From Thermotogae bacterium (lineage in GTDB: Bacteria > Thermotogota > Thermotogae > Mesoaciditogales > Mesoaciditogaceae), in contig JALSLY010000043.1 in NCBI GenBank assembly GCA_026988035.1, positions 1 to 55,548 on the forward strand: a stretch of DNA of 55,548 nucleotides. The letters are read 5' to 3'. The translations under genes and the position numbers were made by a program. Under the pieces are notes generated by a model. It saw only the letters and a list, made by a program, of their open reading frames with translations, was not told the origin of the DNA and did not search any database. Of the stretch, positions 54,011 to 55,541 are shown piece by piece (the first letter of the stretch is position 1; every line of letters begins with the position of its first letter).

Positions 54011-55279
54011 TCACGCATAGGCGTTCAAATCAAGTAGGCCATGGCCGCTTAAATTGAAGACAATGACCTTTTTTTCTCCTGTTTGGGCCGATTCCTTTGC
54101 ATATCGAATTACCCCAGCAATTGCATGACTTGTCTCCGGCGCTGGTATAATCCCTTCTGCGATGCCAAAGAGTTTTGCGGCATCGAAAGCTTCTTTCTGA
54201 TCAATAGCTATTGCTTTTACTAACCCCTCGTGTATCAATCTGCTGATTATCGGAGCCGCACCATGGTATCTCAATCCCCCTGCGTGAATTGGTGGTGGAA
54301 CGAAATCTTTTCCTAACGTGTACATTTTTAACAAAGGAGTTAATCCAGCCGAATCGCCGTAATCATAACGATATTCTCCTTTTGTAAGCGATGGACATGC
54401 TATAGGCTCACAAGCAACTATTTCTAACTTGTCGTTTTTCAACTTTTCCGGCATGAATGGGAGCGTGAAACCACCAAAATTGGATCCACCTCCAAAACAG
54501 CCAAGGAGAACATCTGGCTCTTCGCCAACTATGTCCATTTGCTTTTTTGTTTCCTCACCTATGATCGTTTGATGAAGCAAAACATGATCTAGTACGCTCC
54601 CCAAAGAGTAATTAACATTTTTAGATTTGAAAGCAAATTCAACAGCTTCACTTATTGCCATTCCAAGACTTCCAGTCGTGTTTGGATCTTTACTTAGAAA
54701 CATTTTTCCATTTTCTGTTAAAGAGCTCGGGCTCGGATGGATTCTTCCACCAAAAAAGTTGACCATGCACCTTCTGAATGGTTTTTGTTCTAAGCTGACT
54801 TTTACCATGAAGACCTCAACATCCATATCGAGGATCTCAGTTGCATATGCAAGTGCGCTTCCCCATTGACCTGCACCTGTCTCAGTTGAGAGTTTGGTAA
54901 CTCCTTCAACTTTGCTGAAGTAAGCTTGAGCAATAGCCGTGTTGAGTTTGTGACTTCCTGTCGGACTAACTGATTCGTTTTTGTAATAAATATGGGCCGG
55001 CGTGTTAAGCACACGTTCAAATCTTGCCGCACGTACAAGAGGAGTCGGTCTATAAATAGAGTACGCTTCACGAACCTCTCTGGGAATGGGAATTTCCCTT
55101 TCCAAAGTCATTTCTTGCTCTATCAACTGTTTGGGAAAAATTGCACCCAATTTTTCTGGCTCCATTGGCCTATTCGTTTCTGGATCCAAGGGTGGATCAA
55201 AACTGAACGGTAGATCGGCCTTAACGTTGTACCAGTATTTTGGTATGTCTTCATCCTTCAGATACACTCTTCTTTCCAT
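54011..55279 (-). CDS. trpB: Tryptophan synthase beta chain, TrpB2 type
   Basis: PLP enzyme joining indole and serine to tryptophan. 422 aa with the long N-terminus of the TrpB2 group ([20 protein letters not shown]), which usually is not tied to TrpA. The PLP lysine is Lys111 in [11 protein letters not shown] and the phosphate loop is [10 protein letters not shown]. The ATG at 55279 has AGGAGGTG 6 nt upstream; a start 3 codons earlier lies over it. No trpA or other trp genes are in the window. A leader peptide with three Trp codons and an attenuator precede it, so it is probably controlled by tryptophan supply. Confidence 0.93.
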
Positions 55280-55303: not shown

Positions 55304-55346
55304 AAAAAGCCGGGGACTCTCTTAATAGAATCCCCGGCATTCTGGC
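55304..55346 (-). promoter_or_regulatory. trp attenuator: terminator and antiterminator arm
   Basis: Minus-strand RNA. Terminator: GCCGGGGA (55331-55338) pairs with TCCCCGGC (55309-55316), followed by TTTTT (55304-55308). The 5' arm overlaps segment 3, GCCAGAATGCCGG (55334-55346), which can instead pair over 13 bp (two G-U) with CCGGTATTTTGGC at 55381-55393 in the leader-peptide gene. The two pairings exclude each other. Confidence 0.85.
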
Positions 55347-55371
55347 TTTTGACATCAATTAAAAATACGCA

Positions 55372-55452
55372 TCAAGTACGGCCAAAATACCGGTCGTACC
55401 ACCACCACACATTGTTTTCAGAAGAACTTCGAAATTTCGGAGCTATTTTCAT
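55372..55452 (-). CDS. trp leader peptide (26 codons, three consecutive Trp)
   Basis: Short gene too small for usual gene finders. ATG at 55452 is preceded by GAGGAGGT with 6-nt spacing. The 26-residue peptide starts MKIAPKFRSSSENNV and continues with Trp16-Trp17-Trp18 (TGG codons at 55399-55407), Tyr and Asp, and ends at TGA 55372. A hairpin GTACG-CC / GG-CGTAC (55376-55399) begins at the last Trp codon. A ribosome stalled on the Trp codons for lack of charged tRNA-Trp would block this hairpin and free the antiterminator segment, the classic attenuation layout. It controls the trpB gene 93 nt downstream. Confidence 0.88.
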   Translation of the reverse strand: MKIAPKFRSSSENNVWWWYDRYFGRT

Positions 55453-55466
55453 TCTTTTACCTCCTC

Positions 55467-55541
55467 TGGTGAGTGCGGCAGGGATTGAACCTGCGACCTC
55501 TTCCGCGTCAAGGAAGCGCTCTCCCACTGAGCTACGCACTC
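55467..55541 (-). tRNA. tRNA-Val (anticodon GAC)
   Basis: Minus strand. Acceptor GAGTGCG / CGCACTC, D arm GCTC / GAGC, anticodon stem CTTCC / GGAAG with loop TTGACGC (anticodon GAC), T arm GCAGG-TTCAATC-CCTGC, discriminator A and encoded CCA. It reads Val codons GUC and GUU. The nucleotide after CCA is the first base of the GAGGAGGT site of the trp leader peptide, so the two are very likely on one transcript. Confidence 0.95.

Follow-up and report, generated by a model that had tools for sequence, protein, structure and literature searches.

What controls a tryptophan synthase gene that stands outside the trp operon, and what does its product do for the cell? The question is raised by trpB2, which encodes an orphan enzyme whose physiological role is debated, in a member of the Thermotogota. 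The window considered here is the whole stretch of DNA that was analysed, 55,548 nucleotides long; on its minus strand trpB2 (start codon ATG at 55279) stands alone, with a convergent SpoVS-family gene as its downstream neighbour. The regulated protein is a genuine TrpB2, scoring above the curated cut-offs of both NF009057 (683 bits, cut-off 366) and TIGR01415 (643.5 bits, cut-off 518.85). Before the gene, at 55304-55452, lie a leader and an attenuator that a preliminary description had read as a complete ribosome-mediated Trp attenuator. The parts of this element are confirmed here (Table 1), and they are conserved before the trpB2 genes of relatives. Sequence and comparison together make it very probable that this is a classical ribosome-mediated transcription attenuator, which would sense charged tRNA-Trp and control trpB2.

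Table 1. Features of the trpB2 attenuator region, in window coordinates.
Feature	Position	Strand	Basis or remark
tRNA-Val (GAC) gene	55467..55541	(-)	CCA end 14 nt before leader ATG
Shine-Dalgarno region of leader peptide, contains GAGGAGGT	55458..55466	(-)	sequence
Leader peptide ORF MKIAPKFRSSSENNVWWWYDRYFGRT*, 26 sense codons + stop	55372..55452	(-)	sequence; WWW kept in 59/68 relatives
Three consecutive Trp codons (UGGUGGUGG), control codons	55399..55407	(-)	sequence and comparison
1:2 hairpin (protector), first base = last base of third UGG	55376..55399	(-)	folding
Strand 2 of antiterminator	55381..55393	(-)	folding; shuffle test
Strand 3 of antiterminator	55334..55346	(-)	5 nt shared with terminator 5′ arm; folding, shuffle test
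Intrinsic terminator hairpin 3:4, 12 bp	55309..55338	(-)	folding; covariation
Terminator T tract, five T	55304..55308	(-)	sequence
trpB2, TrpB-like PLP enzyme, 422 aa, regulated gene, monocistronic	54011..55279	(-)	profile match; gene context

The leader, its Shine-Dalgarno sequence and its three UGG codons are present in the sequence as first described, with the ATG at 55452-55450 and the TGA stop at 55374-55372. Folding at 37 °C, the temperature used for all RNA energies given here and one above which the host may grow, reproduces the 1:2 hairpin (-9.4 kcal/mol, z -2.6) and the 13 continuous base pairs of the 2:3 antiterminator. The proposed mutual exclusion of the helices also holds, in that the 2:3 helix is the minimum free energy fold once strand 4 is removed and overlaps the 5′ arm of the terminator. 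For the terminator itself, position and T tract had been given correctly, but folding yields a stem of 12 bp (-24.2 kcal/mol, z -7.2) in place of the 8 bp proposed. Compared with shuffles of its own upstream region, the 2:3 helix stands 8 standard deviations above chance. The sequence TGGTGGTGG occurs 29 times in the whole 2.04-Mb genome, and 27 of these copies lie in long open frames, the exceptions being the leader copy and one intergenic copy. The tRNA-Val gene upstream of the leader was absent from the preliminary description.

Across the phylum, trpB2 is present in 75 of the 101 Thermotogota genomes searched. Leaders were counted for the 68 copies with at least 120 nt of upstream sequence, and 59 of these, from eight families, carry an unbroken UGGUGGUGG in a short ORF before trpB2. 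Nine genes were first scored as leaderless; two of them proved to have displaced leaders. In one (G068, L213:192-1508) the attenuator is followed by a gene for a branched-chain-type periplasmic binding protein and then directly by trpB2, which suggests that trpB2 shares a unit with a gene for Trp or indole uptake. In the other (G022, L214:380-1812) the WWW leader is separated from trpB2 by a transposase gene of the IS110 family. The seven copies of the 68 at which no leader was found all belong to two genera of one family (f11, g22 and g26), presumably Thermotoga-like, where a neighbouring gene leaves room for only a short 5′ region before trpB2. The switch is thus not essential for TrpB2, and its absence from Thermotoga-like trpB2 may explain why it has gone unseen in the best-studied genus.

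Among 49 aligned leaders, 12 columns are invariant, and nine of these are the in-frame UGG run. The peptide that follows WWW varies freely, with family-specific ends such as YDRYFGRT, YCPDSVG, ISPPI, SCPFGGG and NSGNCPPPLLW, which points to translation of the codons, and not to the peptide, as the signal. Outside the Thermotogota, a Trp-run leader was found at one of 71 trpB2 loci with enough upstream sequence (L025). At this locus, from a deltaproteobacterial MAG, the leader MTNAATNNWWWWRRL lies some 150 nt before trpB2, accompanied by a strong terminator and what may be an antiterminator; it perhaps reflects transfer or independent origin.

Because the families do not align, and folding the 49 leaders to a consensus left just 3 pairs, each leader was tested separately for the alternative helices. 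In 58 of the 59 cases the stretch separating leader and gene folds into a terminator, with energies from -16 to -27 kcal/mol (mean z across leaders -6.0); in the exception (G042) the gene start is misplaced, the complete element, terminator included, being visible in refetched upstream sequence. The 1:2 hairpin has a mean z of -2.0 and in most leaders begins with the G residues of the last UGG, although it is weaker in part of family f10. The best gapless 2:3 helix, in which sequence downstream of the UGG run pairs with the 5′ side of the terminator, is mostly 10-17 bp long and beats shuffled sequence in 50 of 58 leaders (no more than 5 of 100 shuffles as good). Gapless helices are weak in G005, G014, G024, G078 and the f7 genomes, with 5-7 bp when bulges are disallowed and most not clearly above shuffles.

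In all 58 leaders the distance from the last UGG to the start of the 2:3 helix is 3, 4, 5 or 6 nt, while the pairing sequence of the helix is wholly different between families (CCGGTATTTTGGC, GCCCCAATTCGGTG, CCCCCGATCTG, AGCCCCTTCA, GGCAATTGTCC, CCGGTGGTTGTCC); this family-to-family difference is a wholesale compensatory change. Within the window's family, 7 of the 12 terminator pairs have changed on both sides, 98.1% of cells are paired (slid versions reach no more than 67%), and covariation reaches 0.475 against 0.276 (sd 0.038) in shuffles. Counts of 2:3 pairs from an alignment in which the sequences of genus g2 of family f1 are misaligned in strand 2 were not used as a statistic. Loss of the Trp codons or of the alternative pairings in close relatives had been named as the outcome that would speak against an attenuator; the search for it found the codons and helices kept.

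Each part that characterises this mechanistic class is thus found: a translatable leader ORF with a Shine-Dalgarno sequence and a run of Trp codons, an intrinsic terminator between leader and gene, an antiterminator that excludes the terminator and is kept despite sequence change, and a protector that excludes the antiterminator. RNA polymerase would enter the leader, in this genome probably having started at the tRNA-Val promoter, and a ribosome would begin to translate the leader peptide. When Trp is plentiful, this ribosome would pass the three UGG codons to the stop codon beside the 1:2 region and cover strand 2, leaving strand 3 to pair with strand 4, and transcription would stop. When Trp is scarce, it would pause once the first UGG had entered its A site, with its leading edge just short of strand 2; strand 2 would be free to pair with strand 3, the terminator would be broken and trpB2 transcribed. 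If the leader were not translated, the 1:2 hairpin would tie up strand 2 and the terminator would form.

The geometry is tight. Counted from the first base of the first UGG, strand 2 begins 12-15 nt downstream; the bacterial ribosome footprint, as in Escherichia coli, reaches about 15-16 nt beyond the first P-site base. Strand 2 would therefore begin just beyond the front of a ribosome whose A site holds the first UGG, and a ribosome waiting at the second or third UGG would be expected to cover its first bases. With control codons and antiterminator this close together, the position of the ribosome can be tested.

In five of nine family members, namely this genome and four relatives, the leader lies right behind a tRNA-Val gene. 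Promoter-like TTGACA/TATAAT sequences precede that gene in the relatives; the window ends short of the corresponding point. The tRNA is probably co-transcribed with the leader, to judge from this arrangement, and we infer that tRNA-Val is made constitutively while trpB2 is expressed on readthrough only. The Shine-Dalgarno sequence of the leader lies within a few bases of the CCA end of the tRNA, and the leader mRNA may owe its 5′ end to processing of the tRNA.

Elements of this kind extend beyond trpB2. The genome's own trpEGDCFBA operon (L153:7741-9578, G000:C46) is preceded by a second complete Trp attenuator, with leader MKTFFYIFSIKQLNLKNNGWWYRARC (..NNGWWYRARC*), a 2:3 pairing of CCCGGTGTTGA with TCAACATCGGG, and a terminator. 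A covariance model built from the trpB2 leaders, which is mainly a sequence model, was searched in the 101 genomes, and twenty further matches were inspected. Related elements precede trp operons in G000, G003, G012, G025, G060 and others. A lone trpB1 in G085 (L258, C53) also has a WWW leader and attenuator before it, in a genome that yielded neither TrpA nor IGPS above cut-off. Before the DAHP synthase gene of the present genome (L247, G000:C31:47554-47651, minus strand) lies an aromatic FWYY leader (..EYNFWYYHRTRF.. / ..EYNFWYYHRTRFMVCEV*) with a 13-bp antiterminator, CCCGATTTATGGT:ACCATAAATCGGG, and a terminator; a related element precedes DAHP synthase in G001 (L248).

Genes for TrpX-like ABC substrate-binding proteins in several families (L251, L254, L255, L260, L264) have leaders with aromatic runs, such as AYAYWWFRG, LWWWKR and GFWYRT, followed by terminators. 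These proteins score below the curated TrpX cut-off, so that Trp is only suggested as their substrate. In G012, which has no trpB2, a WWW leader and terminator precede a TIGR04076/4Fe-4S ferredoxin-domain gene (L249:262-1065, C43). A short ORF and terminator in the same genome stand before a gene of the methanogenesis-marker-16 kind (L250, C72:11135), possibly another amino-acid attenuator. Weak matches of the model were false: L252 and L253 resemble 5S rRNA, L259, L263, L265 and L266 are coding sequence, and L257 was likewise rejected.

What TrpB2 is for can be approached through the company it keeps. TrpB1 occurs in 34 of the 101 genomes, with TrpA above cut-off in 32 and IGPS in 30, and 58 of the 75 trpB2 genomes lack TrpB1, a count that includes some incomplete genomes, most being more than 90% complete. 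In these 58 genomes trpB2 appears, from gene content, to encode the only Trp synthase, and Trp would consequently come from external indole alone, which TrpB2 would join with serine or phosphoserine. Where the upstream region of a TrpB1-less genome is readable, the leader is directly present in 50 of 52 cases and displaced in the other two, which bears out the proposal that TrpB2 serves Trp supply. Across dozens of species, this is regulatory evidence for such a role of orphan TrpB2.

The accompanying suggestion of indole salvage fits the TrpB1-less relatives, and TrpB2 is probably an indole-salvage enzyme in most Thermotogota. It fits less well here, because a full trp operon with its own Trp attenuator makes TrpB2 a second Trp synthase; in this genome it would back up that operon. 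The prediction follows that most Thermotogota make Trp from scavenged indole only. We lean towards the broader view of an old, phylum-wide aromatic attenuation regulon comprising trpB2, the trp operon, lone trpB1, the TrpX-like transporter and DAHP synthase, in which the antiterminator edge matches the front of a ribosome waiting at the initial UGG of the three; on this view salvaged indole sustains most members through trpB2, and one lineage has borrowed the promoter of tRNA-Val.

Other readings of the locus have to be set against these data. A short Trp-containing leader, with Pro and a stop soon after WWW in several families, recalls TnaC-type nascent-peptide arrest, in which free Trp stalls the ribosome through the peptide and the gene would be induced rather than repressed. 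Yet the three Trp are the only residues common to all leaders, the C-terminal ends differ by family, and no conserved peptide sequence besides Trp, the mark of TnaC, was found among the leaders. In the window's leader no Pro follows WWW, there are intrinsic terminators together with antiterminators that exclude them, and the targets are biosynthetic and uptake genes, all of which makes peptide arrest highly improbable. T-boxes binding tRNA-Trp, Trp riboswitches and TRAP-like proteins likewise place an antiterminator before Trp genes, and under any of them the ORF would be incidental. It is hardly credible that one acts here, given that the in-frame UGG run supplies three quarters of the invariant leader columns, that no (G/U)AG repeat array for a TRAP-like protein is visible in the leader, and that Rfam searches at gathering thresholds and at E up to 5 gave chance matches only, with no T-box and no RF00513.

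The tRNA-Val gene directly upstream, here and in four related genomes, might suggest an ordinary tRNA terminator followed by a chance Trp-rich ORF. The comparative data contradict this and leave it a negligible probability: four of nine family members, and the other families inspected, have the leader without the tRNA, and the WWW run with its fixed spacing is kept throughout the phylum. It could also be that the attenuator is real and the main role of TrpB2 lies elsewhere, for example in serine deamination, a role proposed earlier and discussed in the literature (PMC1854888); the presence of TrpB1 in this genome would allow it. We regard this as very unlikely, since the Thermotoga maritima and Sulfolobus enzymes are reported to be poor serine deaminases (PMC1854888) and genomes that lack TrpB1, TrpA and TrpC have trpB2 under a Trp attenuator.

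How does this attenuator compare with known ones? Like the enterobacterial trp attenuator (trpL, RF00513), it combines a short leader with consecutive Trp codons, exclusive 1:2, 2:3 and 3:4 pairings and an intrinsic terminator. The two nevertheless have no detectable sequence homology (no Rfam match), the target here is a stand-alone trpB2 rather than trpE onwards, and there are three UGG codons instead of two. In the E. coli trp leader, strand 2 starts about 14 nt after the last UGG; here it starts 3-6 nt after it, inside the span of the 1:2 hairpin.

Actinobacterial trp attenuators (Corynebacterium, Streptomyces) also have leaders with double or triple UGG and a classical terminator and antiterminator, and in C. 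diphtheriae one precedes trpB2A (PMC1262725). They belong to another phylum and differ in sequence; moreover, C. diphtheriae trpB2A is named as a second biosynthetic operon beside trpB1EDGC and includes trpA, whereas the gene here is isolated; the "trpB2" of that operon is comparable by name. uORF and amino-acid leader motifs identified by comparative genomics, such as uORFC-8-2 before cysS, share conserved control codons and alternative stems but differ in amino acid, gene and phylum; a Thermotogae genome was among those scanned in that study, whose passages on leader peptides report no trp motif (PMC8632094). No such description for Thermotogota or TrpB2 was found in the open-access literature searched; Thermotogae may be mentioned in a survey of bacterial attenuation by Lopatovskaya et al. 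2010 (cited in PMC10272879). What seems new is the target gene, the spread and the compact geometry of an already known mechanism. About 60 diverse natural examples now place classical attenuation in an early-branching, often thermophilic phylum.
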